DNA from: Antedon mediterranea
Taxonomy: Eukaryota; Echinodermata; Crinoidea; Comatulida; Antedonidae
Reading direction: 5' to 3'
DNA: 64,000 bases
NCBI RefSeq assembly: GCF_964355755.1
Contig: NC_092670.1
Coordinates: 8,183,201 to 8,247,200, forward strand
In this document: in pieces, positions 11,216 through 48,133 of the stretch
Numbering within the stretch: the stretch's first letter is position 1
Layout: every line of letters begins with the position of its first letter
Position numbers and translations under genes: made by a program
The notes under the pieces: generated by a model
Seen by the model: the letters and a program-made list of their open reading frames with translations, nothing else
The model's database searches: none
Told to the model about the DNA's origin: nothing

Positions 11216-11474
11216 TAATCGATCGATCCAAACCCACAAGTTTTTTGTTGAACAGTGCATGTTTATTCAATGTTATTGCCTACTTTACTACTCCCTTATT
11301 CAGTACAGTATATGCCACGCTGTACCTTAGGTACATTTTATTTATATTTATTGGATTTTTTAAATTTACAGTAGGCCTATAATTATGAAGAAATGTCATC
11401 GCAATTAGGACGAACTCAACAGCAACATTAACTTTTAAAAATCATTAAAAAAAGATTTTTTATTGAACATCAGC

Positions 11475-22746: not shown

Positions 22747-23084
22747 GGGATCCAGTCAAGTCGCCCCATCGCAAAGTCGCCCCATACAAAGTCGCCCAAT
22801 ACAAAGTCGCCCCATCGCAAAGTCGCCCCAAAACAAAGTCGCCCCAAAACAAAGTCGCCCCGGCACAGTCGCCCCATCGCAAAGTCGCCCCATTACAAAG
22901 TCGCCCCATCGCAAATTCGCCCCATCGCAAAGTCGCCCCAACGCAAAGTCGCCCCATCGCAAAGTCGCCCACGGTTTTAAAAAAATCATTAAAAAAATAG
23001 TCCCTTGTTTGAAAGTTCTAAAAAGATTATCCCTGATTTATAGTTTCGAAAATGTTAATTTAATATGATTTTAAAATTAGTTGG
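22747..23084. repeat. GTCGCCCC minisatellite-bearing insertion
   Basis: Fourteen units of a 15-16-bp repeat (GTCGCCCCATCGCAAA) occupy about 22763-22970. An AT-rich segment follows. GTAGTAAC stands on both sides (22739-22746 and 23085-23092) like an 8-bp target duplication. A second array in the opposite direction lies at 39497-39650. Long open frames in both minus-strand phases are by-products of the repeat. Confidence 0.65.
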
Positions 23085-23094
23085 GTAGTAACAA

Positions 23095-23210
23095 AGTGCG
23101 AGGCAGCGAGGCACGCGAGGCAAGTCAAATATTTATGCGAGGCATCGTTTTACCGTCACCAAAAAATGCGAGGCACCATTTTATTATTTCCCAAAAGTGC
23201 GAGGCATGAA
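23095..23210 (-). repeat. GCGAGGCA cluster
   Basis: Seven or so GCGAGGCA motifs are spaced by AT-rich sequence. The reverse complement (TGCCTCGC) occurs in the same pattern at 36935-37050 and 37970-38100, including TTTTGGAAATGATAAAACGA-like spacers and CACTTTGTCAACACT ends. No coding capacity. Confidence 0.6.
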
Positions 23211-23698
23211 ATTCAACAAAAAATTCGGCCCTGGAGACGTTCGTCCCACTTAGGACCGAACGTCTTACTTTATAGTCCAAACCAAAAAGTTTTTAAAGGT
23301 GTTTAATAACATATTTCATTGATATTGCAAATGTTTTCGATATAATAATAAAATAAATTACAAAAAAATGTAATTATATCATAAATTATGCATTTTATTA
23401 TTTCGAAAACTGTGTTTAGTGTGCATTCGCAAAACGACCAACAGAGGGTGTCATTTGTTTATATCATTCGCTCGTGTGGCCGGCTGCGCGGCTAATTAAG
23501 ATCATTTACGGTAATGTTTTAGGCCCTATATTTTAACAATATTGTAGTTTATAGAGTATTAGTATTACTACTACCCCATAGTCTCTCTGAAAAGAAAGTT
23601 TGGGGAAAAAAGGTCTGTTTATGCTTATAAAATGCATATCAAAGCCTATACATTAAGTGGGCCGAATCGTCCAGACTCTGTCTAGACTGCCAGAATAT
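23211..23698. other. Noncoding sequence between repeats
   Basis: AT-rich, no gene supported. Confidence 0.35.
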
Positions 23699-23839
23699 AG
23701 TAGGCATGTTAAGGTGCATATTTTAGGCAAATCCTTCAAATTGTGATAATATTTTGAAACTTTGCACAGTTATTCATTAGGGTGTCAAAAACATGAAATG
23801 GAAGGGTTGCACAAAATTTGGTCAGGGGAAAGCCGCCAT

Positions 23840-24460
23840 TTTGGATTTCAAAATGGCGGACCCTAAATTTTCACTTTTCAGGTATATCTCCGCTAAAAAG
23901 GCACCTAGAGTTCTGATTTTAGGTGCAAATTATATGGTAGTGGGGTCACCAAACATATTGGTATAACTAACATTTTGATTGCATGGCGGCCATGTTTGAT
24001 TTCAAAATGGCGGACCCCAAATTTTCACTTTTCAGGTATATCTCTGCTAAAAAGGCACCTAGAGTTCTGATTTTAGGTGCAAATTATATGGTAGTGGGGT
24101 CACCAAACATATTGGTATAACTAACATTTTGATTGCATGGCGGCCATGTTTGATTTCAAAATGGCGGACCCCAAATTTTCACTTTTCAGGTATATCTCTG
24201 CTAAAAAGGCACCTAGAGTTCTGATTTTAGGTGCAAATAATATAGTAATGGGGTCACCAAACATATTGGTATAACTAACATTTTGATTGCATGGCGGCCA
24301 TGTTGGATTTCAAAATGGCGGACTTCAAATTTTCACTTTTCAGGTATATCTCTGCTAAAAAGCCACCTAGAGTTCTGATTTTAGGTGCAAATTATATGGT
24401 AATGGGTCACCAAACATATTGGTATAACGTCTTTGATTGCATTGCCGCCGCCGGCCATTT
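23840..24460 (+). repeat. 154-bp tandem repeats with ATGGCGG motifs, left arm
   Basis: Four units begin TTCAAAATGGCGGA at 23847, 24001, 24155 and 24309, exactly 154 bp apart. Each holds CAAAATGGCGG and most hold CATGGCGGCCATG, similar to the YY1 site (AANATGGCGGC). The open frame at 24291-24644 is not a gene. Confidence 0.85.
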
Positions 24461-24599
24461 TGAACGTAGCTCAAACTGTACTGGCTTTACACTATTTGTT
24501 TATGTTTATAGTTACATGCATTTAACATGGACACTTATTGTAGGTCACATTTTCCCTGGCAACCACACAGCTCTGTACATCGTAAATCACTCTTTCTGC

Positions 24600-25451
24600 A
24601 TTTACAGCGTCCAAGATCACAGTCGGTGTGTCCACAGCGATTAAAACCTTTGTGACATCTGAGAGTGTGGAGCACTGTGGCGCAGTGGTTAGAGCATTGG
24701 ACTTGCAATCAAGAGGTTGCTGGTTCAAGCCCGGTCGGTCACTGCAGTGTTGAGTCCTTAAGCAAGATTCTTTATCCACATTGTTTCTCCCCACCCAGAT
24801 GATAGAAATGGGTACCGGTATGTAAAAAGTACTGGGAAGGTAAACCAGACTCGTTTGTGCGGGAGGAGTGGCGTACCCCCACCACAAACATACACACTTA
24901 GTGGAGTCTGGCTCAAACGCTAAAGAAATGGAGATGGGCACCACAGCCATTATCATTAGCTTAGGTCTCGACACTTTACCTTACAGACAATGACATCCTA
25001 TCGAAAACTGAAGTCATTCATGGCATCTTTTTCCAAGTCTTGTTAAATGTAGCTTTACCTTTTCCTTGAACAGATGAAGTTGTATCACATTCACAACACC
25101 GCTAAAGGAATGAAAGAACAAGTAAGCGGCTGATGCTTGTGGTCCAAGAGAAGAAACAATCTCGTGTATTGGGATGTGCTTCCCCACTCCAAACTCGATC
25201 CAAAGCTCGTGGATCCTAGGTATTCTGTGGAAAGCTGACAATGCAATAACAATAACATCACTGTCTACAGTCTTGACAAGAATGCGCGGAAAAATTTCAG
25301 CGGCATGTTTAACATGAACAAACATACATTCATCTGCCTCTATGTTACATGGCATCAGCAGTTGTATATTTACAGTCTGGTTTGTTGCAGCTCTGTCTCC
25401 TAGAGACCCTACAAACATTCCGTGATTTGTGTCAACTTCGATCAGTGACAC
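24600..25451 (-). pseudogene. Inverted left-arm copy of a CXC-type gene fragment
   Basis: The minus-strand frame from 25451 to 25014 reads GMFVGSLGD, LLMPCNIEADECMFVHVK, VKTVDSDVIVIALSAFHR, ELWIEFGVGKH and AAYLFFHSFSG. Similar strings (PCNHEEADTRMFVHV, TVDTDVVVLA, FHAFTGCDT) belong to a widespread uncharacterised metazoan protein family often found with transposons. It is interrupted downstream by the SINE at 24665-24965, past which the Cys-rich end appears at about 24640-24560. The function is unknown. This copy is broken by indels. Confidence 0.6.
24665..24965 (+). mobile_element. tRNA-derived SINE
   Basis: TGGCGCAGTGGTTAGAGCAT (A box) and GCTGGTTCAAGCCCGG (B box) are spaced as in a tRNA, with an anticodon-like TGC in ACTTGCAATC, resembling tRNA-Ala. 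The body continues with AAGCAAGATTCTTTATCC and a CCACCCAG block, then ends near ACCACAGCCATTATCATTAG. It lies in the left arm of the fold-back element; the right arm lacks it at the corresponding point near 26320, so it inserted after the arms formed. Confidence 0.8.
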
Positions 25452-26450
25452 GACTAGATTTGTTTTTCGATAGATACTTTAATGACAGTTTAAAGTCTGG
25501 TATGCGTTCCAACCGCGTTTCTGGTGTAAGGAGGGTCGTTAAAGCCAGCGGGAGCATGCCCAACAATTGGACCACATTTTTTAGATTTGATGACAACAAA
25601 TCAGATTTGTTTTCATTTATTGTAACTGAAGTAGTAGAGAACATTGGCACAAATCACGGAATGTTTGTAGGGTCTTTGGGAGACCAGTAAATATACAATC
25701 GCTGATGCCATGTAACATAGAAGAGGCAGATGAACGTATGTTTGTTCACGTTAAACTTGCCGCTGAAATTTTCCACGCATTGTCAAGACTGTACACAGTG
25801 TTGTCAGCTTTCCACAGAATACCTGGCATCCACGAGCTTCTGATTGAGTTTGGAGTGGGGAAGCACTTGAAGTACATCCCAATACACGAGATTGCTTCTT
25901 CTCTTGGATCACAAGCATCAGCCGCTTACTTGTTCTTTCATACCATTAGCGGTTGTGATAGAACTTCATCTGTTTAAGGAAAAGGTAAAGCTACATTTAA
26001 CGAGAAAAAGATGCCATGTAGGACTCCAGTTTTGTTAGTGAAGAAACAGATTATCTAGAACAGTTTGTTGTAACTATGTCTACTGCAGAACATTTAATGA
26101 TGCAATACGATATCTTTTTACAACAAGAGAAAGACTATTGAAAATATCCCCCAACATCTGCGGCATTAAGAGAACATGTGAAATGGAAACCAGGAAGTGG
26201 TACGACTGTCTAGATGCATTCAGGGTTGAACAGGACCTAGCGAACTGGGGATAGAGGAAGGACGGCAACAAATTTAGTCCAGCTTGGAGTTCATATCTTG
26301 GAGAACTTTCAGACGTCACAAAGGTTTTAATTCGCTTTGGACACACCGACTGTGATCTTGGATGCTGTAAATGCAGAAAGAGTGATTTACGATGTACAGA
26401 GCTGTGTGGTTGCCAGGGAAAATGTGACCTACAATAAGTGTCCGTGTTAA
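25349..26450 (+). pseudogene. Right-arm copy of the CXC-type gene fragment
   Basis: Plus-strand pieces in more than one frame read FFDRYFNDSLKSGMRSNRV, PNNWTTFFRFDDNKSDLFSF and GMFVGSLGDQ (to 25690), then PCNIEEADERMFVHVK, FGVGKHLKYIPIHEIASSLG and FFHTISGCDRTSS (25705-25977). Further pieces to about 26450 include a Cys-rich segment, CCKCRKSD and CTELCGCQG. The order matches the uncharacterised family named for the left arm. Frameshifts and stops separate the pieces. The fragment is probably a captured or transposon-encoded gene. Confidence 0.6.
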
Positions 26451-26509
26451 ATGCATGTAATTATGAACATAAACAAATAGTGTAAAGCCAGTACGGGTTG
26501 AGCTACATT

Positions 26510-27125
26510 CAAAATGGTCGCCATGCAATCAATGACGTTATACTAATATGTTTGTTTACCTCAATACTATATTATACTTTGTACCTAAAATTATAACTGT
26601 AGGTATCGTACTGAAACATTTTGAGTTCGCCATTTTGAAATTCAAAATGACCGCCATGCAATAAAAATGTCAGTTAAATACCAATATGTTTGGTTACCTA
26701 TTACCATATAATTGGCACCTAAAATCAGAACTCTGTGTACCTTTTTAGCAGAGATACCTGAAAAGTGAAAATTTAAAGTCCGCCATTTTGAAATCCAAAA
26801 TGGCCGCCGTGCAATCAAAATGTTAGTTATACCAATATGTTTGGTGACCCATTAACATATAATTTGCACCTAAAATCAGAACTCTAGGTTCCTTTTTAGC
26901 AGAGATATACCTGAAAAATGGAAATTTGAAATCCGCCATTTTGAAATCCAACATGGCCGCCATGGAATCAAAATGTTAGTTATACCAGTATGTTTGGTGA
27001 CCCCATTACCATATAATTTGCACCTAAATTCAGAACTCTAGGTGCCTATTTAGCAGAGATATACCTGAAAAGTGAACAATTTGGGTCCGCCATTTTGAAA
27101 TCCAAAATGGCGGCTTTCCCCTGAC
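26510..27125 (-). repeat. 154-bp repeats with CCGCCAT motifs, right arm
   Basis: These are diverged inverted copies of the units at 23840-24460: GCCATTTTGAAATCCAAAAT and TTTGGTGACCC recur about every 154-160 bp. Confidence 0.75.
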
Positions 27126-27241
27126 CAAATTTTGTGCAACCCTTCCATTTCATATTTTTGACACCCTAATGAATAACTGTGCAAAGTTTCAGAATGTTAT
27201 CACAATTTGAAGGATTGGGTCACTTAACAGGCCTACTAATA

Positions 27242-28367
27242 GTAATTCAGAACCAAGCCCAAGAGGGCCCTAATAATCACCATACGAGACCAAAAATGAG
27301 GCCCAGAATGTTGCGAATACCCACCAAAGAAGGGTAGATAATTGTTCATTAATTAATAAAACCCAAGTTTTATCGCAAAAATCGTGCGATTTTATGTTAA
27401 AAACGATGAATTTCAGCAATAACAAACAAGATTATTTATGGCACGCCCATAGTGCCTTTAATAGGAGAACAGCAGATCGGTTATCATTGTGTATTCTTCT
27501 AACGTTTATCGCCGATCTAATTTGTTTGTGTGAACATATTGACCTGTTTCGGAAGTTATTGTGTAGGAGTAGTATAAATTTGACAATACGGATTAAACAA
27601 TTTAATATTACAATGTAAAGAAAAAAAAACACTGTTGATCAAGTTTCATTAATTATATATATTTATCCAAAGATATAATCATTCCTTTATAACTTAACCA
27701 AATTTTCCTATGTAGTCCTTCTCATTTTTCAACATAGACCTATAACATAACTGTAGGACCTATATTTGATGAACAAAATTTAAGTTTAAAAAATGACCGA
27801 TTTATAAAATAATAAAACCAAAGAACAACTAAAATACTGCATATTAGTACTGTTAAACAAATTATAAACAAGTGTTTAATACGGAAAAATCTTCCTTTTA
27901 ATTGAAAACAAACAACATATTGTAAAATTATAAAACAATCAAAATCATCTTAATGAATGTTACCAAAATGAAAAGAACAAATAAAACACCATTTTTCATA
28001 TAATTGTTGATTTAAATAAAAGTTTTTTTTCCTTTGTTTTACAAATATTTACATTAAATCAGTTCAATAAGTGAATATAATACTTTCTATGTCAAACATA
28101 ATACTACACTATGTAACACAGGGTTAAACATATTATTATAACCAACATGCCATGATAGATAGATAATCAATTTTTATATGTATATTGTTTCTAGTTCAAC
28201 TTTTAAGATTACACATTGTGAGAGATTGCCATAAAAGATAAGATACATTTAAATATTGTAGCATAAAAATAATAGTTTATTAATAACATTTAGCTTTAAA
28301 ATTGCATTAGAAAAAGAACAAAACAAAAACAGTGTTTTCTGTTGTAAATCAGTCTGGTTTTATGTTG
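27242..28367. other. 3' flank of the minus-strand OTU-transposase gene
   Basis: AT-rich. On the minus strand AATAAA occurs about 90 bases after the stop (near 28280), a plausible polyadenylation signal. Short open frames at 27394-27632 lie on both strands and are not supported. Confidence 0.4.
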
Positions 28368-30773
28368 TTAATTAATGCTTTGTTTTTGAGATTCTGTTAA
28401 ATTTTTGTCAAAGTACAGTGGCATTGTTGGTGAGTTATAAGTACTAATGTACGAGTTTCTAGGCAATTTAGACATGCAAGCAATACATGGACAAAAATAA
28501 AAGGTACGCGAAATCCACCTTCGTTGTATGGTTCTATAAGGACCTGTGGTACTAGCTTGCAAGTCCCCAGACTGAAGAATCCTTTTGCAAATCGCACACT
28601 TCGCTTCTTTTGATCCAGTTCGAACATTAATGTAATAATTTTGATTTACGGCTTTTGGAATTTGTGTTATTGGTAATTTTTCAGGGTATTTATTTGTTAT
28701 CTCTTTCCATTCTGCTTGTGTGAATTTTGTTTTGTAAATCAAGTGATCGTGTTTTCCAAAATTGAAAATGTTGTGAAATACCCAAACTAAATGGTGACAT
28801 CCACTCTTGCAACCAATGGATGTGCAGGTAGCAATATCTTTTGTCATCTTTATTTTTTCCAAGTAGCCCATTGTGTCTAAAATCATAAAATTAAATTCAT
28901 TAATATTACTGTTACTTGCCATTAAGTCCATCTGAACATTGTTCACCTTCTTCATGAAAAAACCAAGATTTTTCTTCTCAACTCGTCTCGCTTGTGGCTC
29001 TTTCCTATTTCTGTCTGACCTATGGCTATCTTTAACATTTACTCTGTAATCATTTTGTGCCATTTCAATCGAACCAACACCCTGTATCTCAGATTGACGT
29101 CTTTCAATGTCTTGAGCAGCTGACGCACACCTATCTATGTCAACAAACAGTTCTTGGTCACTCTTTTCCCTTCTTTCAGCTGATGTGGGTCCCTTACCAA
29201 TTGTTTTTCTACCAAGAGCCTGTCGCTTTATTTCTGCCGTCTCTAAAATGGCAGCTGAACACTCCATAATAACAACATCCAATAGCCTTTTTCTGTAACC
29301 TGATGCACTAACAGATTTTGCATTGGAAACTTCGGCTGAAGAGGCTAAGCTACTTGATTGTATTCTACACCACTTCTGCCAACGTGCTTTTCGTCTCCAC
29401 CACCAATTCTTAAAGTTCATCATTTTTGTACGGTTATTAGATTTTGTAGAAATTAGTTTCAACAGTGCTGTCTCTGCTTCTTCAGCATGAACATTTGTAA
29501 CAGCATTATAAGCATCAACCATAAATTTTTGAAATTTAGATTTGTCTTTTTCAGAGCTGAAGTAAACATTGTGCCGATTTATATCTTGCTTAAAATGAAA
29601 GTAATCTGAAACAGTTTTTGTCTTAATATCATTACCTTTGGCTTTGCAAAGACCTGACCACAGAGCTCCTCCCTCATCTCCAACATAGGCATGGGCATCT
29701 AGACCTTTACCCAGAAAGTCAATGGCTTTAAGGTTGTATTCAAGAGCTACAGAAGGTATAATTTTGTTTACAGCTTTATCAAAGTATCTCACTAGCCTCG
29801 CCACATTTTCTGAATTTTCACCAGGTTTTGGAACGAAACTACTAACAAGTTTAACATTCCGTCTCAAAACAGGATTATATGTTGCATCAGCTCAATTTCT
29901 GTGTAATCTTTTGTAAGACTTTCGCACCCATCAAGGCTAACTGGTTCATTTATTTTACCAAGAGTAATGAGAGCTGCCATACGAATTTTTTGTTCACTGG
30001 ACAGAAAAACAGAGTTTTCACCAACTTCCATGATTAAATTTTCATCTAAACCCCGCTTACAAAAATCTTCTTTAAGTAGGCGTATAGCTTCAATATCTGA
30101 ACCATCTGGTCTGGATTTTTCATTAACCTTACTTTTAAGATAATGGAGATGACGTGTGTCACTAAATTTCATAGCCGCATCTTCTAGAGAATTGCTATCA
30201 CGTTTACCATCTAATAAAACCTGTCGAATTTTTTCTAACTGAATTTGACCAGTTGTTATTGTTGGTCTTTGTTTTAGAATGTCTTTGACTTCCTCTTCAT
30301 TGGGCTTTTCTTCAGCAGCTTTTGGAAAGCAGGAATGAAAACCAATATAAATCACAGTCAATTTGTTATGACAACGATCATTTTCAACATACTTTCTGGC
30401 AGAGCATTTGACTTTTGTTGCTTCTTGATTACAATGTTTACAATGCTTACTTCTGTTAAAATCTGCTTTATTAGAATGTTGGTTTATGTTTCTGAATGCA
30501 CATTTAACATTTCTACATTCAAATGATCCTCCACACATCTGTAAGGTTCGTCGTCCTCCCTTACAAAATTCACGCCTGGGACAGTGTTGTGACCGACTCC
30601 AATTCCATGTGTCATAGATTCCAATAAGAGGTTTGTTTTCATTGTAGGAAACTTCATACCTTAAATTTCCATTAGGTGTATCAGGTACTTTGTTTACTCG
30701 TTCTGCCTTTAACTTGTCAACCTCATTTTGATTCAAGTACACTCTTGAGCCCCTCTTTATTAGTATCTCATCT
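28368..30773 (-). CDS. Exon 10: zinc-binding region and transposase-like body, frameshifted
   Basis: The first frame (30773-29864) holds CGGSFECRNVKCAF, CKHCNQ, VKCSARKY and TVIYIGFHSC, a C-C-C-C-H-C array like WRKY/GCM1 zinc fingers. It then has LEDAAMKFSDTRHLHYLK. The frame ends at TGA at 29864. The second frame (29867-28368) continues the protein: LVRYFDKAVNK, VGDEGGALWSGLCKAKG, SDYFHFKQDINRHN, NFKNWWWRRKARWQKW and a Ser-Ala-Glu-x-x-Asn motif, as in Mutator-like transposases where a His motif and an N-x-x-E-x-x-N-like motif follow the catalytic core. It ends with a Cys-rich segment (AKCAICKRIL, FCPCIACM). The two frames overlap by four bases in CCTGTTTTGAGACGG. This may be a mutation, an assembly error in the T run, or programmed frameshifting. 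Confidence 0.65.
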
Positions 30774-32385
30774 CTGTAAAAGTAAATAACATTCAGTTAC
30801 GTATTTATTTATTTGTAGGCAAATTCTTAATCCATGCAGTCTAACTTTTACTTTACTAACTTACTTTTTTTCTTCCAATACATCTGTGTGCCATTCTTCC
30901 TTTTTGCATTGTTTTGGTTTTTTTTTTATTGGTGTACACTCAGCCGAGCTTAAACCACTCATCGTACTTGTCAGAATGTCAATGGACTTTTTCTAGAAAG
31001 CAAATAAGAAACACACATTCGCTTTATTTTAACACATCACTGAATTTGTAATACATGCATTTAAAAACATATTCTAATTTGTAAAATAATTTTAAAATTC
31101 TAAACTCTAATTTTTTAATTTATTTTTTAAGATTCCTGATGATGATTGCCAATTACAGAAAGAAAAAATAATGTTTTGGAGGCAAATACAATACTAAGAA
31201 TTCTTGACTTAAACATTAAAGTTGGATATGTGAGGGAACTCTGAAATATATTATTAAAGCAGTTTAGGGTGACAAAAATATCACCAAGTATGAATGAAGT
31301 TTTTAATATATCATTATTTAAAACTGTATAATCAATAAACTTACCAAATTTTCTGTTTTTCTTCTTTTCCGTTTTTTTGATTTGCCTTTGTTATCACCGA
31401 GACTTAGAGATGGTAAATCGTCTGAGCTGCTTGAAATTACAGTAGAATTACGTATGGTGTCCTACACAAAAACACATTTTAAATATTGATAGTTACTGTT
31501 CATGACAATATATTATGAATAGAGCATAACATTACATGATGAGTTAAGTTAAGTTTATTTTAGCTTTGCTTGAATATAAATAATTAATATTTTTTGGTTA
31601 TTGTTACTGTTTATAAAAACATGCAAGTTAGGATAGGTGGCAATTGCCAACCTAACTATTTCAATTAAATTTATTGACAATAATGTATTCACGAATAAAT
31701 GTATGAATGAATAAATTAATTAATGCATCTTCAGACTTTTTGGTAGCCTAGTCTAAGATACACTAGGTAGGCTACAAAAGTGACTAAAAAGCACAGTAGT
31801 TTAGTAAAATTTAAATTAGAAAAACATTATCTTAACCTTCAATTGACCTAAAGTATCATCTTGACTATCATCTGTATTAAAATCTCTTGTGTTTTTTTTC
31901 TGCCAAAAGTATTTAGTGCGAACTAATAGTAATGGTAAAGAAAATCAAAGTATATGTTTTCAACTTGACCATGCTATGCATTGCGAATCTAAAGGCAACC
32001 CGTCTTCCCCTACTTAATCTCCTTAGTTCTGATCAGTTTTTAAACTTACCTCATCTTCTGATTCACTGGTAATTAAAACAATATCATTCCCAATCTGCAA
32101 CGATAAAACATTTAAATTCACAACATTATTGTATTTCAAATAATTATATTTGAACAACCAATAGGAATATAGTTTAGTGTAAAAAAGAATGTATAACATG
32201 TTTGGATAAGTATAGTAGGCATAGGTTTTTAGTATTTATTACTGTTGACCAAAATGGTTTGAATTGATGTAGGGGAATATTATACAGTTTTATCATTTTC
32301 TTAAAATGGGATAAATGCTAAATAATTAGGGATCATATCCAAATGACTATATTTCAGTTTCTGCAGTAATACCGAACAAACTATA

Positions 32386-32416
<31 letters not shown>

Positions 32417-35400
32417 TACTGAAATTATCATTGCAGTACTGCAATTGTTAGCTTTGTATTATTATAGCCCTGCAGTAGAATATTTTGAATATGATCCCTA
32501 AATGCAATAGAATTCTATATAGGGTATTTACAAATTTAAGTACAGATGTGGTATTAATGAATTGTAAAATTACAATAATTAGTTACTGCAACTTACTTGA
32601 TTTACACTATCACAAACACTTTCATCTCCACTTGATATTAATATTTCATCAAGCTGAAAATACAAAATAAGCCAAGTTTTAATTGATTTAAAAAAATGTA
32701 ATATAGTAAATTAATATATAAATTAGAGAGATAAAGACAGATTATGAATATTTCAATAGTGGGTATGTGTGAAATAAATACATACAGTATTTAGAAATAT
32801 GATAAAAGTATGCATACTGTATTATACAAAACTAATTTCTCTCCTTCCTGGTAAATTTACCAAAAAAATTCATACTGTACACTAATAAACAAAAAGACAC
32901 ATTTGTAAATGTTCTAAAAGCTACACTGTATCTTAAAGAAAACAACAAAAACGTTTTTGGAAACTCATAATCAATATCATCTTATATCAGTATTTTCAAC
33001 TTTATAGGCCTATCTGCATCTGGGCTTTCAAAAGCGATTATTCATAAACCAAATAAACACAAAATTACAAAATTTACCACTAATGCCCTGCCTTTAAAAA
33101 CACTGAGACCAGGATTGTATTCTTCTGGACCAAAATGCTCAAATACCTTGGCTTTTTTGTGCCTCTCTGTTTTTGTGTGTTTTTCCACAGATTCTGTAAA
33201 TACAAAAACATACAATATTATCCCATAACAATTTCTAAAGTTGGCCTAAAAAAGTAAAAATATAGGCAATTCATAAGACAATTATCTTTTAAATACTCGT
33301 AACTTTAAGAAGATTTGCTGACTTCATCAGTGCTAATTTTTAATCTCTGTCTTGAAATTGTAGATAATAGTTAAAAAAATAATTCAAAAAGTGTTTAATG
33401 TATATAAACTATATAATCATATTATTCAGCTCAATATCATTCATTCTGTTCTATTGGATGTTGTAAGACTTTAAGAAACTAGAGGGTGAGCTCGCTTCGC
33501 TCGCTCCCCCTCTAGGAAGTGTAGACGATGGTTCTCGGAATGATAATGTTCTCCTTACACATTTTCTGTCGGTTACCATTATTGAAAATGCTTGACATTC
33601 GTAAAACTGAACTACTTTGTTTCACAGTGTTTTAGATGATTAATAACATTTTAAAGTATAGTTTTTATTGTTTGGTAGGGCCCTTTGGGGAGGCGGAGGT
33701 CATTTGAGGGAGGTGCTTATTCGAGGGATATATGTTAAATTTTTTAGTTCTAATAATATGGTAACATTTATAATCAAATGAAATCTTCTCATAGATATGA
33801 AAAGTGGTAAAAAAGAATAACAAATGCTTGGTAAATTGCAGATAACAGTGCGGTGAATTCTACTACAAATAGTATAATTGTGTTATTATAAATATGTGGA
33901 TGGACGTTTATTAGATAGTTGGGTTGGGGGGGGGGGGTTATTATTCAAAGTGATGTTTTATTGGAGAGGCGTTTATTCAAATGAATACCATCCTAATAAT
34001 TATTAATACATTATTTAATTTAATCATCTTTTGAAACTAACTGCCGTGACAGAGTGGGCCCAAGAAAGAAGACATTACGGCTTGCAACATCGGCAGACAT
34101 CTCGGTCCTAACGGGACACAGGAAGATAGCCTACAGTTATTCCTGCAAGCTTACTCAATAAAACTCAGCTATCGGGATTTCACTCGAAAAATGTCTTATC
34201 AAATCTCCCTATGTAATTTTATAATACTATTCCCCACATTATATTCTGATTCTTTATGGCGTACATTTAATTTGATCTTTATTAATTTGCAGTGTAATTC
34301 CTATTATTTAACTACTGTACCTTCACACATGTGTGGTATGTTTTAAAATAAACAAAAAACTGAAATGGCTATGATTAATGGCCAATTTTTTTTTTGTCTT
34401 CCAAAGGGACACTGTATTGATTGATGGAAAGTGCCTGTTTCCAGTCACCTTTAGGGTCAAATCTATTATTTTAACTGCTCCCTTGTGTATAAAAGAGAGA
34501 AAATATTTGAAACTAAGGTGAACTTATCTTAAACCTGGAAATTACTTTGACCGGGAAGAATTGAAATTGAGAGGAAAATCCAATGTTGAAATCATAAATG
34601 TTGTTAAAAAACTCCTTATAATATCTTCCTAAGATATAAATATGGAACAATAGCGTCGGCGTGCACACTAATGTTATCAAATCTACGTTTCGCGGTACAT
34701 CTCGGATAGATAAGGTAGGTATCCAAGGCGGAGATTTGTACCGAAGTTTTTGCATTGTGCTCGCCTATGTCAGAATTAACCATAATTTATATATAGATGT
34801 CAGTACATTTTGTAATATTATTACACACAGTATAATCGTAGATAAAAATTCTAAAACTTAAGACTAACCTGCACGGTTCCCCTCGTCACATTTGGATACA
34901 ACTGGACACCCAACTTCTGTTAGCAACATGTAATGATTCCCAGTATATGCAAAGTAAACATCTGAGTTTCCACATCCAAGGTTACCAAATGGAACTGCAA
35001 CTGTCATTCTCTATTGAGAAGAAGAGAAAAAGTAATTAAAAATAAAATCTGATAACAAGAATAAAACAAACTAATTAAAAGAAACAACATTACTTTTCAG
35101 CAAGTAAACAGATTTAAGAATGCCTGATGAGTTTGTCTGGATATTAGCAAAAGTGTTTAAATGCAATAAACTAAATACAATTTTGTTCTGTACATTATAA
35201 TTTTTTTAATTTAATTTTTTTAACAATTTCTTATCATGTTAAATACATGCCCTATAAAGTATAATTTTATATTTATTATTTAGATTTGTTTGATACATTA
35301 ATTTTTAGAAAGCAAAAATGTATATACACATACCCCTTTCCAATCAACAATTTTACAATTAATGCAAAATATTGTTGCAGCAGCTCTAATGACAACATGG

Positions 35401-36213
35401 TTAGCCATTTGCTGACACAGGCCTATCACACAATCTTCCCATGTACATGGGCATTCTTCCAAGTTTGGAAAATCAGCATTTGAAAAAAATTGCAGAAGGT
35501 CTTGCTTAACTGCAGTGCCCTATGTTCAATTAAAAAGTCACTAATTATCTCATTTTATTTAATTATATATATTTATTTTGATTCAAGTTTTTTTCCTATG
35601 TTATGCATTGAACATTGAAATAAAATTGATGAAACCTTTAAAATACATTGAATTCTTCCCTGATTTTTACAAACAAAAAATCGGCTACTACTAATCTAGG
35701 CAATGAGTAAAAGAGGATGGTCAGTAAAGCTGGCATAAGCCTGGGTACTCCATAAGCCTGGGTACTCCTTAAGCCTCTTGTTCTCAATAAAGACCATGTT
35801 AAATACATTATGAACACACCCAGGCGTTCCATAAGCCGATAGCAATAATTTCATCCCCGCCGAATGAATACAGTATAATTTAAATAAATAATTATATTAT
35901 TAATAAAATAAAGATGAAACTGAAAGCACGATAAACTTACATTTTCAATTGAATTGACATACCGATTTTGTAAAAGGTAGTCCCGAATTAAATCAAAAAC
36001 TTCCTCTTCTTCTATCGAAAAAAGTGCAGCTAAGCATTGGTAAAAACACCGGTTTTCATTCCCCGGTGGGTCAGCTTTCAAAGTAAGTCCTCGCTTTTTT
36101 GCTTCGAGAAGGCACAACACCCGGTTAGACATCTTCGGATATTGACCTTGTATTATGAAATGACGGTCTTCAGAGCTCCGGAGTTCTTTCGCGCAGACAT
36201 TTATATTCGCCAT
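28368..36213 (-). CDS. OTU-like protease / WRKY-GCM1-like zinc finger / transposase-like fusion gene, 10 exons
   Basis: Exons (minus strand): 36213-35941, 35519-35334, 35010-34869, 33193-33078, 32653-32597, 32094-32050, 31899-31837, 31461-31345, 30992-30865 and 30773-28368. All introns are GT-AG (donors GTAAGT, GTATGT, GTTAGT, GTAAAT, GTTAAG) and the phases agree at every junction, including phase 1 after exon 3 and phase 2 after exon 9. Exons 1-3 encode an OTU-like region. Exons 4-9 are an acidic/serine-rich linker with a basic nuclear signal (KSKKRKRRK, exon 8). Exon 10 encodes a Cys/His cluster like WRKY/GCM1 zinc fingers of Mutator-like transposases and a transposase-like body. A frameshift at about 29864-29867 splits exon 10. 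The total is near 1,180 residues. It could be an active transposon gene or a domesticated one; no terminal inverted repeats were found. Confidence 0.75.
33479..33985. repeat. Intronic repeats: a hairpin and a GC-rich TE fragment
   Basis: CTAGAGGGTGAGCTCGC and GCTCGCTCCCCCTCTAG (about 33478-33515) are near-perfect inverted repeats. At about 33680-33980, GGGAGGCGGAGGTCATTTGA and GGAGAGGCGTTTATTC flank an AT-rich stretch with a G homopolymer, like the ends of a short DNA transposon. They lie in the intron between exons 3 and 4. Confidence 0.4.
34869..36213 (-). CDS. Exons 1-3: OTU-like cysteine-protease region
   Basis: The ATG at 36213 is the first in frame; it reads MANINVCAKELRSS. DPPGNENRCFYQCLAALF (residues 48-65) resembles the OTU nucleophile motif (GDGxCFF), with Cys56 as the likely nucleophile. 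The usual Asp of that motif is replaced by Asn/Glu. EEEEVFDLIRDYLLQN fits the helix after it. Exon 2 encodes EECPCTWEDC and a helical ANHVVIRAAAT stretch. Exon 3 gives VYFAYTGNHYMLL, with His179 in the position of the OTU catalytic His (NHY). OTU enzymes remove ubiquitin-like modifiers; whether this one is active cannot be told. Fold-level assignment rests on these motifs only. Confidence 0.6.
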
Positions 36214-36238
36214 CGCCAATCATTAGCCTCTTTCTAAT

Positions 36239-38110
36239 CTTTGCGGCATGTTCTTTGATCGGCATATCGGTTACCATTATTCGCCGCCAACAGGAAGTCA
36301 AGTTAAGTTTGTCTATCTTTGTTTTGCCATGGTTTTGCATTCCCATACATGCTGAAGTTAAAAGGGAGGTGGGTCGGGTTGCTTTCGGAGGTTATTACCC
36401 GGACCAACCAATATGAAACTAAAATCATTGTGAAGTAAGGAAAAAATAATCAATAAATATTCTCCCGCATATGACCGTACAGTGTTAATAACACGTGCTG
36501 TTTTCTTTAAAGACCAGCACCGTGTGTATACATAAAGAAATATCAAAACATTTCAACTTTTTTGGTAACTCTAGAGGAAATTTTAACAACAGGGAGCACG
36601 AAGCATGTCCGTATGATAACCGATACGACCTCATGCCAATAATAAGCACTGAGTCATTTAAGGTTGATTATTCTACTATAGTACTGTATATAGCAACTAC
36701 AGAAATCGTCGAAATACTGTCGGTGAATAAAAAAAAGGCACATACGGATGGCAGCTATCCACACACAACTTGAGAACAGTTTAGGGCACTGTTGTAAAAA
36801 TGAACACAAATAATTTGACAACATGATGAATATTTATTTATTTATTCATTTTTATTTCTAATGATATAGCATAGGCCTATGTTATAAAAATTTAAATAAT
36901 TGATTTATATAATAGCATAGTAGCACGTTAAGATATGCCTCGCGCGTTTTTGAAATTTTAAAATACATGCCTCGCACTTTTGGAAATGATAAAACGATGC
37001 CTCGCACAAATATTCTGCTTGCCTCGCATGCCTCGCCTCGCACTTTGTCAACACTCGCTCTAGCGCCAGGTTTATTAGTACGTACATGGACAACAATAGA
37101 TAAAAATCGTTCATAATATACCTAGCTTACTAAAACAGGAATAGTGTATCATTATTAAATATTACACCAATTATTATTATATCAAAATTGATTAAATTAT
37201 TTTCTACATAGGCCTCTTATCTAGGTTAGGGCTAAGCATATTAGCTAAAGTTTAATTTTAGGCCTAGTATTACAATTGTCGGACGCAAGTCTTTTTTCAC
37301 ACGCGCTCCAGAATTCTGTCGCAATTTTTTTCTTTGCGGCATGTTATTGGATCGGCATATCAGTTACCTTTTATTCACCGCCAGTTATTGAACTTGTCCT
37401 GGCAATCGCTGTTCACCTTATTTGCGAGAGAGGTACACGTGTTGTTCCTAGAGAATGGAATGTCAAAAATGTCTTTGGCACGCCGCTCAGAGAGAAGTCT
37501 GTGCGTTGCTGCTGAAACCACGTGCTATAGGAGGGGAATGCACCACAATCCTCTGAGCTGAGGGCTGAATAATTCCGCTACCTGCTAAATAGTAAAGAGG
37601 GATTTTCCATCTCTCGGGTCTACTGGATCTAGGCGCAGGGGTGTGACAAAATATTATTTTCACTCTGCTATGTTCGAGAGACATGTGAGTGAACACGCTC
37701 GAAATGCCAACAAACATTGCAGTCATTTGATGAGTGTGTCGCTATAACAATTATTGTTTATCGAAAGTTGAAGACTGTCGTTCAGATTTTTGAACCGTAG
37801 TTTGGGCACTTTTGTAAAAGTAAAATTTGACACGATATGACTTAAATGAAAAAACAATCGTTACATAAAAATAAACAACATGATGAGTGTATACACGAAT
37901 CTATTTAGATACGCTTGTATCGATTGATTATTAGACCTATAATATAGCATAATAGCACGTTAAGATATGCCTCGCACCTTTTTGAAATTGTAAACTATAT
38001 GCCTCGCATGCCTCGCACTTTTGGAAATGATAAAACGATGCCTCGCATAAATATTTGACTTGCCTCGCTTGCCTCGCGTGCCTCGCTGCCTCGCACTTTG
38101 TCAACACTCA
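36239..38110. repeat. Diverged tandem duplication (~1.03-1.1 kb unit)
   Basis: TTTGCGGCATGTT with GATCGGCATATC and GTTACC occurs at about 36239 and 37333. GGGCACT.TTGTAAAA with ACAACATGATGA occurs at 36785 and 37805. GCACGTTAAGATATGCCTCG occurs at 36923 and 37957. The order is the same in both copies and offsets are 1,020-1,095 bp. The first copy begins within 30 bases of the 5' end of the minus-strand OTU-transposase gene, so it overlaps its promoter region. Open frames inside are not conserved between copies. Confidence 0.65.
36930..38105 (+). repeat. Two TGCCTCGC clusters
   Basis: At 36935-37050 and 37968-38100 the motif TGCCTCGC recurs 6-9 times, with CACTTTTGGAAATGATAAAA between units and CACTTTGTCAACACTC at the end. 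The reverse complement pattern is at 23095-23210. Confidence 0.7.
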
Positions 38111-39430
38111 AATTAGTTACCAGAGCCACAATTACGAATCTTTCTTCAACCTACGCGTGGATACCAGCTAATTTTTTAGGATAAGCTAATTTTTTAGGAT
38201 AATATAATAAATGTATAAATGTGTAGTAGCCTAGGCCTTCGTATAGATTTACAGTAGTTAAAACAATAACAGTGTTGTAAGACAATGAGTGTTATAGGCT
38301 ACTTATTGATCATTTTACATTTATTGACAAGTTATGTGTCTTAATTTTATAATGACTTTTCAAAATAAAGAAATAAAAAAAAAAGGATTTCATCGCCGAT
38401 ATGATTGTTTTACATGCAGGTATTTTAGTAAAATTAAAACGCTACATTTTGACCATGGAAAAACCATCGTACAGTATCGTGTGCGTGTTTTTTAAAAAGG
38501 GGAATCCCCGACGGTCAGCAGAAAGACATAGCAGCTGTGAGGAAACAGATACCAGAAGGCGCAGCTCCGATTGGTTTCAGAGAATGTTTCAGATGGCGAG
38601 TCGCCTTTTATTCAACAGCACAATGATCATTTTACTGAAGAAATTCTTTTCAACCCCTTTGGTTAGGCCTAGAACATTCTAATTATCATGCCTAATAAAT
38701 ATCCTCATAATAATCGGGTATTTATTTAATTTTAAATTAAACAAGACAGTGAAGAGGCACGGAATAATACGTACACGGACGTACGACGAATACACACACG
38801 CACGTCATCATTTACGACATATAGTGGTGATATGATGCAATTTTATAATGGATATAATGATGGGATTGCCTTTCCAGGCTTACAATCAATGTTCATTACG
38901 TAATACTATGTATATAATAGTAAACTGAATGTTTATAAATAAATTGTTTTACGTAATTTGTTGCATATAAAATAAAAGACACAGACGTAGCCTACGTTTC
39001 CTATAAAATATTTCACATTTAAATAATTATGTACTGTTAAATGACATTATGCTGGATAATATTATAATCTTAAACTATGTTTACAAATTATTAATATAGG
39101 CCTAATAATAATAATACATATTCATCGACCAAAGTAAAAATAATCTAGATCGTATAACATTATTTTATCGCGACCAAATTTAAACGCGACCGATTTCGAA
39201 CGCGACTGATATCATCGTAAAACTCCGGCGGGGTTTCCCCATCTTCAGATGGTGCGTTGTAGTACGGGACGACAACGGCGGAGTAATTACGGGGGTTTCC
39301 CTCTGGTAAGCTAGCACGTTAGTGCGACCGCGGAGTGATTAGTCGGGGGCTTCCTCTCTGATGATGGGGGTGCGTGCCGATCGTGTGACCTGAGACTACA
39401 TGGCGGGGCTTCTCCTTTTTATGCCTACAC
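38111..39430. other. Noncoding sequence with GCGACC motifs
   Basis: No gene supported; the 93-codon frame at 38401-38682 has no recognisable motif. Near 39170-39210 GCGACC-type motifs repeat three times (AACGCGACCGATTT). A GC-rich stretch (39220-39415) with repeated GGGGGTTTCC/GGGGCTTCTCC-like blocks follows. Confidence 0.35.
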
Positions 39431-41639: not shown

Positions 41640-42792
41640 AAAGTAGGAGGTGCTATACGATTATAATATTTCTGAAAAGTTTCCTCCTTAGCCCAACCAG
41701 CTGACTTCATGATGTTTTTTAGATCAACATTTTTATTTAGAAGATGAGAAGCTGAGGCTGATCTGGTTACTATGGGGCTTATATTGGACTGTATCTATAC
41801 CTGCATTACACATGAATTTCTTTACCCAGTGGGACACTGTATCCTTTGAAATCGGCTTATGTGGGGAAATGTAACTTAACAGTAGCTGTGCCTTAGCCTG
41901 GCGAAAAACACTTGTACGTGAAAGATATTCTGTCAACAAAGACACAATGCATAATTTTTTGTCAGATGGAAACGCATTGAATTCCAATGGCTTTTGATGT
42001 GAGCCAACCCGTGTATGCTTTAATTTTTCAGTTACATAGAAAACAATTTTATGATCACTCTTTTCCATATTTGCAATCGAGAGATTTAATATCGTCCTGG
42101 CACCTTTGACCACTTAAAAGACACAATAAGAACGCCAATCTTTGTGATATTTCTTTCAGCGATGATTCTTGGATTGATGGTTGCCCTCTGATGTAATCTA
42201 GGGCAACATTGACATTCCATGTATAACTGTACCTTGGTAAAGATGGTCTTAATTCAAAAATACCCTTCATAAAGCGTTTCACAATAGGTAATTGACCAAA
42301 AGATGCATACTCTTGACCTACAGCAAAAAGAGAAGACAGCATACTTCTAGCAGTATTAATAGATCTGTACGATAAACCTGAATTAAACATATCTGATAAA
42401 AACTCAAGTGGTAATATCACATGTGGTGAAATAATGTCACAATTTTTTCTCTCACAAAATTCAAACCATCTGTTAGCCATAGTTTGATATTGAACCTTTT
42501 TTCCTGCTCGCCACGATGCTAGTATGATCTCTATTGTGCCTGAGGTAAATCCCTTAGATAATAAGCTTCTCCTGATACATGACATATGAGCAGTCGTAGT
42601 TTCTTGTGTAGAGGATGAGTCAAGCCCGGTTGTGCTGGTATCACCAGAGGGTCTGGTGCCGGTTGAATTTGTGTTGCTTCCTTGAGTATCCCCAGCAGCA
42701 TGGGGTACCACGATTGGGATGGCCAATCTGGTACTACTAGAATTCCCTGCGCCTTGTCTTGTATTATTTTCTGTATAACCCTGAGAACACAA
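41640..42792 (-). pseudogene. DIRS tyrosine recombinase (two frames)
   Basis: Frame one (42792-42055) has a Ser/Thr-rich start, then SCIRRSLLSKGFTSGTIEII, RWFEFCERKNCD and LAFLLCLLSGQRCQDDIKSL; the Arg of SGQRCQD is the first catalytic Arg. Frame two (42113-41733) has ARTILNLSIANMEKSD and ends in HSNQISLS, where an H-S-x-R motif is expected; a one-base insertion near 41765 explains the loss. A third frame (to 41640) holds GWAKEETFQKYYNRIAPP with the catalytic Tyr. The enzyme would integrate the circular DNA copy of the element; this copy is inactive. Confidence 0.8.
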
Positions 42793-43754
42793 TTAAAAGG
42801 GGGAAAGCAATAGAATAATATATTTTGCCATGATATTGTAAATGCATCAATATCTGTTGCATATGGATCTTGCCTATAAGAGATGTATTTATCAAATTGT
42901 TTATTTAGTCTTGATGCAAATAAATCAATTGTGGGTAGAACATTAAGTTTCGTTAGAACCTCACATAAAGTTTTAGAATTTAGCATCCATTCTGTATCTA
43001 TATTCTGTCTTCGAGATTCAAAATCAGCAGTAACATTAAGCACTCCTGGTATGTGGGCTGCAGTAATCCAAATATTATTACTTTCACAAAATGCCCAAAT
43101 TGTCCGTGTAATATCATTACAAGGATCACTGTGACATGTTCCCATATTATTTATAATGGAAACAGCAGTAGTATTGTCAATCATGAGCTTTACCTGTTTA
43201 CCTAGAACTTGTTTGGAAAAGGATGTCAGGCCAAAATATGCAGCTAATAGCTCTAAATAATTTATATGGTATTTTCTCTCATTTACTGTCCAATGACCAC
43301 CTGTAGCGGCTTCACCCATTGCTGCCCCCCAACCAGAAAGAGAGGCGTCTGTGTAAATAGTTAAATCAATTGCTAAATGTCCAATTACATTAAAACATTG
43401 TGGTAGGTTTATCAGCCACCATTGTAGATCCTCAATAGCCGAGGATGACAAACACATTTTAGAGTCGAAATTTCCTCTGGCTGTCTTTAAAGCATTAATC
43501 TTATCCCTCTCCACTGCCCGATAATGGCATTTACCATATTGTACAGCAGGGAAGCTTGACACAATATACCCAATAATCTGTGCTATCTCTCGAATTGTTG
43601 GAGTAGGTGTTGCCAATATCCTGGTAATACAGTTAGTAAGTCGATCAATTTTTGGACTTGTCAAAGTAATTTTCATATTACCTGAATTAATATTAAAACC
43701 TAAGACAGGGAATAATTTCGCCAGTGTAGCATAGCAAAAAGCTATACAAAACAA
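42531..43754 (-). pseudogene. DIRS RT 3' part, RNase H and following domain
   Basis: After an entry from inserted sequence, the frame reads LGFNINSGNMKITLT (end of RT thumb), TIREIAQIIGYIVSSFPAV, then RNase H motifs: LTIYTDASLSGWGA (first Asp), NYLELLAAYFGL (Glu), LMIDNTTAVSIINNMG (Asp) and HIPGVLNVTADFESR (last Asp). Then PTIDLFASRLNKQFDKYISY and ILVVPDWPSQSWYPML follow, typical of DIRS elements. RNase H removes the RNA template during reverse transcription. The frame overlaps the recombinase frame by about 260 bp, as usual in DIRS. Confidence 0.85.
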
Positions 43755-43880
43755 CCTTTTTGCTACACATTTCTACAATTGTGTAGCAAAAAATACAATA
43801 CAAAACTATCTTTCTTGACTAAAAAATCAGTTTGATTAGCAATTTTGCTAAACAAAATTTTCAAATGAAATTTTTCCCTG
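43706..43880. mobile_element. 175-bp nonautonomous transposon inserted in the DIRS RT
   Basis: It begins CAGGGAATAATTTCGCCAG (43706) and ends GAAATTTTTCCCTG (43880), inverted ends, with TAAGA on both sides (43701-43705 and 43881-43885). It splits the RT frame between the TFL and GFN residues of the thumb. The inside contains TTGCTACACA and TGTGTAGCAA as a further inverted repeat. The 5-bp duplication and CAGG ends agree with the elements at 19165 and 21301. Confidence 0.8.
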
Positions 43881-44602
43881 TAAGAATGTGATACTTTGTG
43901 TAGGTATAAAAACTGATTTTTCAGGATGTATGACAAAACCTAAACTATCAAACATCTTTATTGTTTCCATAATAGTATCAACGCATCTCTTGTATGTGGA
44001 TCCTATTAATAGTAAATCATCAATATAGGCACATAAAATATGTCCTCTCTTTCTCAGAAAACTAAGTGGTGGTTTTAATAGTTTGGTGAATGTTCGGGGC
44101 AAAAGGAAAGACCATTTGGATATGCTGTAAATTTATAAAGTTCTCCCTGATAGTGAAATTTTAGATACTTCTGAGAATCCTTGTGTATTCCCACACTATA
44201 ATATGCATCCTTTTTAAAGTCAATAGAGGCCATCCAACAATTCTTCGTTATCATACTTAATGCGGTATTGATTGTGTCCATTTTAAAGTGTTTATATTCA
44301 ATATATTTGTTTAGTGATTTTAAATTTAAGATTATGCGTACCCTATTATCTTTCTTAGGAACTGAAAAAATTGGAGATACATATTCCCCTGGTTCATATG
44401 CACATTTAACCAGTACACGTTTAGTTAACAGTGTCTGTATTTCATGTTCTACTAAGTAGATGTGATTCTTTGCAATAAAATTTGATGGACATGTAATGGT
44501 TGGTGGTGGAGGACTTAAAAATTGTATTATTTCACCCTTCACTGAATTTAGGGTTGTATGGTCAGAAGTTAGTTCTTGCCATTTTTCTATAAATTTTTTC
44601 AA
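43848..44602 (-). pseudogene. DIRS reverse transcriptase (two frames)
   Basis: Frame one (44602-44075) shows EHEIQTLLTKRVLVKC, PIFSVPKKDNRVRIILNLKS and LNKYIEYKHFKMDT, then ASIDFKKDAYYSVGIH (motif A, where Asp is expected near FKKDAYY) and YKFTAYPNGLSFCPE. Frame two (44102-43848) has PRTFTKLLKP and ILCAYIDDLLLIGST, the YIDD catalytic motif. The frames overlap by 28 bases, so a small indel separates them. RT copies the element RNA into DNA. Confidence 0.85.
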
Positions 44603-44685
44603 TTGGCCACCAACAAAATGTTCTACTCGATAGTCTAAGTATCGTTTAAGATCATTTAACTCAGAGTGTGCCTTTACCTGTGAAT

Positions 44686-45898
44686 CTATCGTCGGTAATT
44701 CTTGAACATCCTGCCTCTTTTTCGCTGGTACTGTCCGGACTGTCCCCTTTGTCCGCTGGCGTGGGGATTTACCTGGTTTTGTTGATAGTTTTGTCGATAT
44801 GTCTGAGGGTTGTACCCTCTCTGAGGTAAAAAAGGTCTTCTCTGTGTAGTGTATGGGGCATATCTGCCTACTTGTCCCTGGTTTTTCATAATCCTCCCTT
44901 CCAGTTTTGAATCAGTCATAACCTGTTTTAAGTCATTGCCAAATAGCATTCTTTCAGGTTTGTTTGTTCTTAAACATGCATTTTTGAGGTCTGTGCTATG
45001 CTTAGTAGCGGTCTTAATGTGTCCCTCCTTTTATACGATAACTCTTTGTTGACAAAACCCAAGAGGGCTACAGAGTCAAACAGGCGGGTAGCTGTTAGCT
45101 TATAATCAGGAGCCTTTTTGGATTCTTTCGCCTTAAGCATATCTTCGATACAAATAGCAATGGCACTTGTGGCCTTTACAACTGAGTCCTGTAGGGCTGC
45201 TACACGCAGATCCCTTTGTTTATTAAAAGACTTCAGTTCATTCCAAATTTGGTCATTTACTTTTGGTACATATACTTCTTTTAGATTACCCGGTATCTTA
45301 TATCTCTCAATGATAGCCTTGTGCTTATCTAGACTCAGTGCAGATTCAAATTTAGCATTTATTATCTTTGCGATTTTTTCCGATATGGAGGCCCAACAGT
45401 GTTGTCAATACATAGGGACGAATCTATTAGATTAAGGATGGAGTCTACATTTTCCTCCTCCACCTCTTCAGCCTCTTCAAAATCATCCCCTCCGAATATG
45501 CTCAAGGCCTCGTCCTCCGATATGGGGTGATTATTTGAGTTATCATTAGAGGTATGTGCTGCATGTGCAGTATTTGATGCTTCCTGTGAAGCTGGAGTGT
45601 ATGCTTCCTGTGAAGCTAGTGTGTATGCTTCCTGTGAAGCTGGTGTGTTAATTGCTTCATTTGAAGACAATTGAATAGGCTTGGCTCTACTAAGCTCGCC
45701 CAACAGTGTATTAGTCTCTGTCATACTACGCTGCATTGCAGCCAACACATTTACAAGCGATGAGCCTTTCGCTGTTGGCGATAGCGGCGGGGTCTCTTCG
45801 GGATCCGTCTCTTCATCGCCTACTACGGCAGGAAGCGCGCCGGCGGGAAAACCCTCGCTTGACCTAGGCCTAGTAGAAATGTAATCACTGTTCTCCAT
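44686..45898 (-). pseudogene. DIRS Gag-like region (three frames)
   Basis: It starts at ATG 45898 (MENSDYISTRPRSSEGFPAG), Ser/Thr/Pro-rich with three copies of a TPASQEAY-type repeat and an acidic stretch (EEAEEVEEENVD). The frame shifts near 45390 and continues open to about 45010 (containing KESKKAPDYKLTATRLFDSV). It shifts again into 44949-44686, with LFGNDLKQVMTDSKLEGR and an Arg/Gln/Tyr-rich end (QRKRGRMFKNYRR) as in DIRS Gag nucleic-acid-binding tails. Function by family: packaging of element RNA. Confidence 0.65.
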
Positions 45899-46140
45899 AG
45901 AGAAAACAAGAAATAACCTGTTCTAAAAAACGGTCTGTAGTGTCTATATACTTATCTGAATTGACCAGTCTAGATGGAAATTCTACAAAAACTTTGAAAA
46001 CTGTAGTTTGGAAATTTATTCTTCTATCTGATAAGTGAAAATGACTAGCAGCATGTACATGAAAGGGTACAACTGGCATACGCATGCGCGGTACTCTCTC
46101 GTACTACTCCGTAGCGACATAGGCTGATGACGAAATAGAA

Positions 46141-48118: not shown

Positions 48119-48133
48119 ATTACAGAATACAGC

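Follow-up and report, generated by a model that had tools for sequence, protein, structure and literature searches.

Mutator-like elements (MULEs), of which those bearing an Ulp1 protease go by the name of Kaonashi, generate target site duplications (TSDs) of approximately 8-11 bp, mostly 9 bp, while the TSDs of Ginger elements are short. Eukaryotic transposons have repeatedly been found to carry proteases of the ubiquitin/SUMO pathway, namely Ulp1 in MULEs, either Ulp1 or OTU in Ginger1, and OTU in Helentrons, and in the relevant passages of the reports their role is put forward as a proposal: the Ginger paper proposed a role in repair signalling (PMC2836005), and a role for the Helentron OTU was argued from residue conservation (PMC4067079). 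Here, a 64,000-nucleotide stretch of the genome of the crinoid Antedon mediterranea was analysed (RefSeq assembly GCF_964355755.1, contig NC_092670.1, positions 8,183,201 to 8,247,200 of the forward strand); this whole stretch, on the contig designated C1, is referred to as the window, and coordinates given without a contig are window positions. A gene of ten exons on the minus strand, running from an ATG at 36213 to a stop codon at 28368, was identified within a mobile unit, and is probably the transposase gene, interrupted by introns, of a cut-and-paste transposon of Mutator-like (MULE) type with a fused N-terminal OTU-like protease. The product is predicted to be a single chain composed of an OTU-like cysteine protease, an acidic/basic linker with a run resembling a nuclear localisation signal (NLS), a Cys/His cluster, a DDE core and a Cys-rich tail.

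The 5' half of exon 10, used as a query against the 354-Mb genome (18 contigs), gave a match of 99% identity on contig C5. When the window was aligned with 20 kb of C5, identity between the two copies was 98.9% along 5.3 kb and 95-99% along the remaining long pieces, and homology ended at window positions 23083 and 38109. These breakpoints, together with an exact 9-bp TSD on both sides (AAATTAGTT), define an insertion of 15,027 bp (23083-38109, coding strand minus), nested insertions included. The C5 copy is 12.6 kb in length, including an insertion of approximately 0.84 kb, and is flanked on both sides by an exact 9-bp TSD (ACTCTGCTT) which differs from that of the window copy. The left terminal inverted repeat (TIR; 23083-23212) begins GGGTAGTAACAAAGTGCGAGGC and has inverted matches of 135 bp to 37967-38101 (77%) and of 118 bp to 36935-37048 (80.5%). 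The right terminal region (37060-38109) ends in GCCTCGCACTTTGTCAACACTC, and an internal copy of the right terminus (36912-37061) is a direct repeat of 37949-38112.

The terminal 180 bp were also searched against the genome, giving 545 first-look candidates, of which 40 were scored. At least 41 matches were obtained, all with at least 96% identity and with the window's own among them; this list is incomplete, because the C5 copy is absent from it. Four of the 41 matches, all ranking high in this list, were sampled and all were found to be derivatives of 1.9-2.1 kb with both ends present and exact 9-bp TSDs (CACCCGTAC, AGTGCGGGT, TTGTTGATA and CGTGGCGCT). The left end was matched at 80.5-81% in all four, while the final 1.05 kb of the coding element (the right terminal region) was shared at approximately 98% by three; the fourth shared it as two pieces (96 and 98%). 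None of the four sampled derivatives matched any exon at the DNA level, and their longest frames were 90-110 amino acids. An exact 9-bp TSD was present in all six insertions for which both ends were read (window, C5 and the four derivatives). The gene sits, then, inside a mobile unit with TIRs, 9-bp TSDs, a near-identical second insertion and derivatives which share its ends. A first-pass annotation of the window, made from the sequence alone, had suggested a search for multicopy relatives with TIRs, and the C5 copy and the derivatives are such relatives. Decayed copies of the OTU-like region are also present on C6 and C7, although neither supplies a TSD because the two ends are unreadable in both. 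As a separate observation, four of 12 places (L032-L035) gave rows at residues 12/15/17-49 (E 0.02-0.4) and have part of exon 1 plus a stretch upstream of it at 55-64% protein identity; these are possibly another derivative family.

The ten-exon structure claimed in the first-pass annotation was borne out. All nine introns have GT-AG borders, the splice-site and phase check gave consistent phases at every junction, and every splice dinucleotide is retained in the C5 copy when the two are aligned. Exon 1 (35941-36213) carries the start codon and the OTU-like cysteine motif NRCFYQ (Cys codon 36048-36046), exon 2 (35334-35519) the middle part of the OTU-like domain and exon 3 (34869-35010) the OTU-like histidine motif GNHYML (His codon 34935-34933). 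These are followed by exon 4 (33078-33193), by exons 5 (32597-32653), 6 (32050-32094) and 7 (31837-31899), which encode an acidic linker, by exon 8 (31345-31461), a linker in which the run KSKKRKRRK from 31383 is called NLS-like on a motif basis only, and by exon 9 (30865-30992), a basic linker. Exon 9 ends at 30865 and exon 10 (28368-30773), which holds the Cys/His cluster, the DDE core and the Cys-rich C-terminus, is entered in phase 2.

Exon 10 had also been read as a single open frame, and this did not hold for the window. It is split into two frames which overlap (29864-30796 and 28368-29891), since between 29864 and 29891 the window carries 2 bp more than C5, and the break falls between the putative catalytic residues D1 and D2; the full protein is therefore unattainable from this copy by ordinary splicing. 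In the C5 copy, exon 10 is open as a frame of 808 amino acids, and length differences of one base, in exons 2 and 8, disrupt the frame. The window copy is dead, and its ends could be mobilised in trans. Given these frame breaks, the ten-exon gene is to be regarded as the structure of a recently mobile ancestor and not as a working gene. The ratio of non-synonymous to synonymous substitution (dN/dS) for window exons 1-9 against two decayed copies was 0.68 (186 codons) and 0.76 (187 codons); these counts were set aside and not used, as the decayed copies have stops and indels and some of the matched pieces overlap in different frames.

A relative of the transposase (hereafter the sister family) was identified on contigs C2 and C4, with 26% identity and an E value of 1.9e-14 by search and 24% identity over the alignment. 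D1 (SLDG/YVDG), D2 (GDE/ADE), the F-x-x-KQ stretch which follows it and E (AEV) are all retained in this relative. Within exon 10 of the window, putative D1 (SLDG) is at 29930-29932 and putative D2 (VGDE, then FHFKQ) at 29676-29678, both aligned to D1 and D2 of the relative and of a MULE set made up of 18 of the 36 MULE-profile hits listed for this genome. Putative E (SSAEV; 29331-29333) is kept in the relative but lies outside the part that aligned with the MULE set and is placed there by position only. The transposase of the relative alone matched the MULE set with an hhalign probability of 94.8% (score 61; null maximum 22.7 in 40 shuffles), and a pair profile of element and relative matched it with 73.2% (score 43.9; no null was run), while OTU sets used as negative controls for the transposase comparison gave at most 0.5%. 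Viral contigs scanned with the transposase pair, with the relative and with the OTU-like part yielded no relatives.

A number of results weigh against a Mutator affinity, or against the proposed explanation as a whole. On its own, the transposase of the element (C5 sequence) reached 1.1% against the MULE set, with two of 40 shuffles scoring as well. The relative alone gave 0.1, 3.2, 12.3, 12.9 and 78.8% against five MULE subsets, and the pair profile gave 0.1-4.3% against MULE subsets. There was no significant Pfam match and no significant PDB sequence match for exon 10, and single-sequence AlphaFold models of its two contiguous frames had pLDDT values of 34.2 and 31.8. Neither of the two full copies (window and C5) is intact, and the TSDs of the decayed C6 and C7 copies are those that could not be read. 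MULE membership thus appears well supported for the relative and is indirect for the element, being transitive because the link runs through the relative. The Mutator-like transposase proposed in the first-pass annotation consequently stands by way of the relative and not on the element's own sequence; of the profile and structure checks it had suggested, profile-profile comparison gave support, while direct Pfam searches and the structure models gave none. Its broader proposal, a transposon in which a protease-like region is fused to a transposase, is upheld by the TIRs, the 9-bp TSDs, the derivatives and a DDE core which reaches MULE profiles via the relative.

The Cys/His cluster (30329-30535, minus strand, within exon 10) has the form C.GS..C....C ... 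C..C........C ... H.C, and all eight of its ligand candidates are invariant between the element and the 24%-identical relative. Its HxC end resembles those of Mutator and WRKY-GCM1 fingers. The cluster scored 14.6 against one WRKY domain, where 60 column shuffles reached 14.7; against two FLYWCH domains from the Antedon genome it scored 13.8, and shuffles reached 19.9. No Pfam or PDB match to it was found. When the genome was searched with a WRKY profile nothing was returned, and as the controls were equally silent the result was uninformative. The cluster is best described as a candidate for zinc binding, of unproven type: the conserved cluster earlier called a WRKY/GCM1-like zinc finger is upheld at motif level, while the WRKY comparison fell inside the shuffle range.

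At the N-terminus, NRCFYQ in exon 1 is followed 123 residues on by GNHYML in exon 3, with Cys before His, as in the OTU motifs. For comparison, 19 of the 94 OTU matches listed for this genome were fetched, of which one was dropped for an internal stop and two because they covered the far part only, leaving 16. Against these 16 domains the OTU-like part gave an hhalign probability of 56.5% and a score of 32.9, compared with a null maximum of 20.8 (60 shuffles, none as good). It is likely on this basis that the N-terminal domain is OTU-like; whether it would also be an active deubiquitinase is a matter of evenly balanced chances.

Several points count against an OTU identity. The profile match is confined to residues 38-84, the Cys-helix region; comparison with two OTU subsets gave 7.5 and 11.7%, and with the two far-part domains 1.2%. 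The residue three positions before the Cys is Glu, where Asp is usual in OTU. Spliced exons 1-3 and 1-9 gave no match to OTU (PF02338) in Pfam at E<=10, exons 1-3 had no significant PHROGs or PDB sequence match, and no significant Pfam match was obtained for any of the ten exons. The OTU-like region of the first-pass annotation is accordingly retained in part, by virtue of its Cys and His motifs and of a profile match over part of its length, with no support from Pfam, PDB or a fold. The same silence of the Pfam, PHROGs and PDB searches, the lack of a fold model, the restriction of the profile match to the Cys helix with its weakness against subsets, and the altered residue before the Cys would all suit a non-catalytic cysteine-protease-like fold, or a domain other than OTU, serving as a module for protein-protein or DNA contact. 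This alternative is considered unlikely, as Cys-F-Y and G-N-H-Y follow one another as expected, with a spacing of 123 residues, and the profile score (32.9) exceeds the shuffle maximum (20.8). A further point against it comes from the sister family, where a different cysteine-protease-like open reading frame (ORF) lies upstream of the transposase, which would suggest selection for protease activity and not for a fold.

The sister family, too, is a transposon family. Its copy at C2:11461322-11476097 has the TSD AACATAAAC on both flanks (9/9), that at C4:9845318-9871640 has a target duplication of 8/9, and the right ends of both read GAGTGTT inward, like that of the element. It was also observed that in the C4 sister element a transposase stretch of approximately 2.1 kb is duplicated near 9855560-9865000 (L030-L031) with approximately 99.8% identity. 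In this family, an ORF of 256 amino acids is located on the same strand 374 bp upstream of the transposase ORF and matches Herpes_teg_N (PF04843) with E=0.0019 and 18.3 bits, which is under the curated cut-off of 25. The ORF is collinear with two Herpes_teg_N domains encoded in the genome, from a QC region to FDSH/FDPH (L083 was left out of the set, as the start of its domain could not be located); the score was 25.9, with shuffles reaching at most 19.8 (n=40), and the hhalign probability was 8.1%. It may be regarded as a candidate for a herpes-tegument-like protease, differing from the OTU-like type. A tentative reading, to which somewhat less than even weight is given, is that a single MULE transposase lineage has acquired, within one genome and upstream of one and the same transposase, two deubiquitinase-type cysteine proteases of different kinds: an OTU-like one in the element and a herpesvirus-tegument-like one in its sister. 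If this were true, selection would be keeping an activity, the removal of ubiquitin near the transposase, and not a particular protein.

Other protease-bearing ORFs were also found in the genome. In a long ORF at C1:12334043-12334495 (L082), PF04843 and then PF02338 occur in one frame, both above cut-off, and neighbouring PF04843 and PF02338 matches occur in further frames of approximately 3,000 amino acids (among 51 and 94 matches listed, respectively). The ORFs of this length with OTU are taken, from their length and their OTU, to be Helentrons; those Helentron-like ORFs with both protease types in tandem could be a donor or a parallel case. An ORF of 574 amino acids at C7:21687271-21687564 (L013) has a weak integrase match (rve_3, E 9.4e-4, under cut-off) followed by OTU and is Ginger1-like; L016 looks similar. 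Because the sister-family candidate, the ORFs with PF04843 and PF02338 and the Ginger1-like OTU ORF co-occur, protease recruitment by transposons looks frequent in this genome.

The arrangement in the sister family, where the protease-like ORF is 374 bp from the transposase ORF and no join was identified, also bears on whether the two parts of the window gene belong together. With splicing of the window gene predicted only, and with linker exons 4-9 being short, a protease gene or captured fragment lying between the transposon ends in the style of a Pack-MULE, and separate from the transposase protein, could be envisaged. This was judged improbable, and more so than a non-catalytic N-terminus, given that the nine junctions are in phase, exons 5-8 are whole-codon modules and every splice site is kept in both copies.

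For a MULE with a fused OTU-like protease, the following course of events is proposed. Transcription would start near the right end, and the mRNA would be spliced to yield one protein, the Cys/His cluster of which would bind the element ends while the DDE core would cut and join with the 9-bp stagger which the TSDs show. Being fused, the protease would most likely act in cis and strip ubiquitin from the transposase itself or from host factors present where transposition takes place, and this removal may prolong the life of the transposase or steer repair. A MULE with an OTU-like domain, alongside a sister with another protease candidate, would provide a compact natural comparison of the need of transposases for local deubiquitination, and the element offers defined ends, a target duplication and derivatives.

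Two further explanations were considered, both very improbable. A host gene domesticated from a transposon of this kind would fit the complex ten-exon structure and the conserved splice sites, but the gene is enclosed within a complete TIR/TSD unit, the longest aligned piece of a second insertion shows 98.9% identity and the frame is broken in different exons of the two copies, so that the domestication raised in the first-pass annotation was discarded. Membership of the known OTU-bearing transposons, of Ginger1 or Helentron type, might be suggested by the presence of OTU in long ORFs of other transposon-like elements of this genome, one of them (L013) with its weak integrase match, and by a chance-level match of exon 10 to Relaxase_M (E 0.3); it was rejected on TSD length, the TSDs here being 9 bp as against the short ones of Ginger, and on the lack of an rve or Rep match, no integrase, Rep or helicase family other than Relaxase_M having been found at Pfam E<=10 in any exon. 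Furthermore, the OTU-like part is N-terminal here and C-terminal in Ginger1 as described in the Ginger paper's account of that element (PMC2836005).

Two nested insertions were found in the window copy. One of 1.3 kb lies in intron 3 (33479-34796, minus strand), has TC...CTAG ends and a 3' hairpin, is inserted between A and T and is missing from the C5 and C7 copies. Such ends, hairpin and A/T target are end features of Helitrons, and this insertion is, judging by its termini, Helitron-like and foreign to the element. The second, of 3.6 kb, lies in the 3' non-coding part (23652-27237), where C5 has 17 unmatched bases; it is also foreign to the element and contains large imperfect inverted repeats (23730-24666 and 26305-27216, 88%). 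The insertion of approximately 840 bp in the C5 copy (C5:14706687-14707530) has inverted ends, lies between exons 5 and 6 and is absent from the window copy.

Elsewhere in the window, a retroelement on the minus strand (42055-45922) had a match to RNase H which passed the cut-off (PF17917, E 8.1e-6) and a weak one to reverse transcriptase which did not (PF00078, E 5.9e-4); it is possibly DIRS-like, and the frame 42058-42792 within it had no Pfam match. C2H2 zinc-finger arrays at 11439-13556, 16610-17962 and 48101-51988 form a local cluster, with one open frame of 1295 amino acids; the first and third arrays were scanned with Pfam.

In a term search, the words OTU, protease and ubiquitin were absent from the main texts of two MULE surveys (PMC6446971, PMC13359780). 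No MULE with OTU was found among the titles listed from the open-licence PMC literature, a scope which leaves out subscription journals and Repbase, which may hold such elements, and no report linking the herpes tegument domain with transposons was found in the same open-licence literature. Compared with animal Mutator-like elements, as set out in the relevant sections on Muta1 of Aedes and on the clades of a 2019 survey, the element likewise has TIRs, TSDs of 8-9 bp, many non-autonomous derivatives and an N-terminal zinc finger (here the candidate cluster) ahead of the DDE core (PMC5225508, PMC6446971); unlike them, it has ten exons, a length of 12.6 kb (C5 copy) and an N-terminal OTU-like domain. 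The Ulp1-bearing MULEs, in the Ginger paper's treatment of them, likewise combine a MULE with a cysteine protease of the ubiquitin/SUMO pathway, although the protease is Ulp1 there and OTU-like here (PMC2836005). In Ginger1, OTU or Ulp1 is likewise fused to a DDE transposase, but in the same paper's description its DDE is of integrase type and its OTU is C-terminal (PMC2836005). Helentrons also carry an OTU-like protease, in the portions of the reports concerned with it, but have a rolling-circle Rep/helicase and another mechanism (PMC4067079, PMC6431247). OTU fused to DDE transposases, as in Ginger1, and Ulp1 in MULEs are therefore known, while an OTU-like domain in a MULE, as predicted here from sequence, appears to be new.

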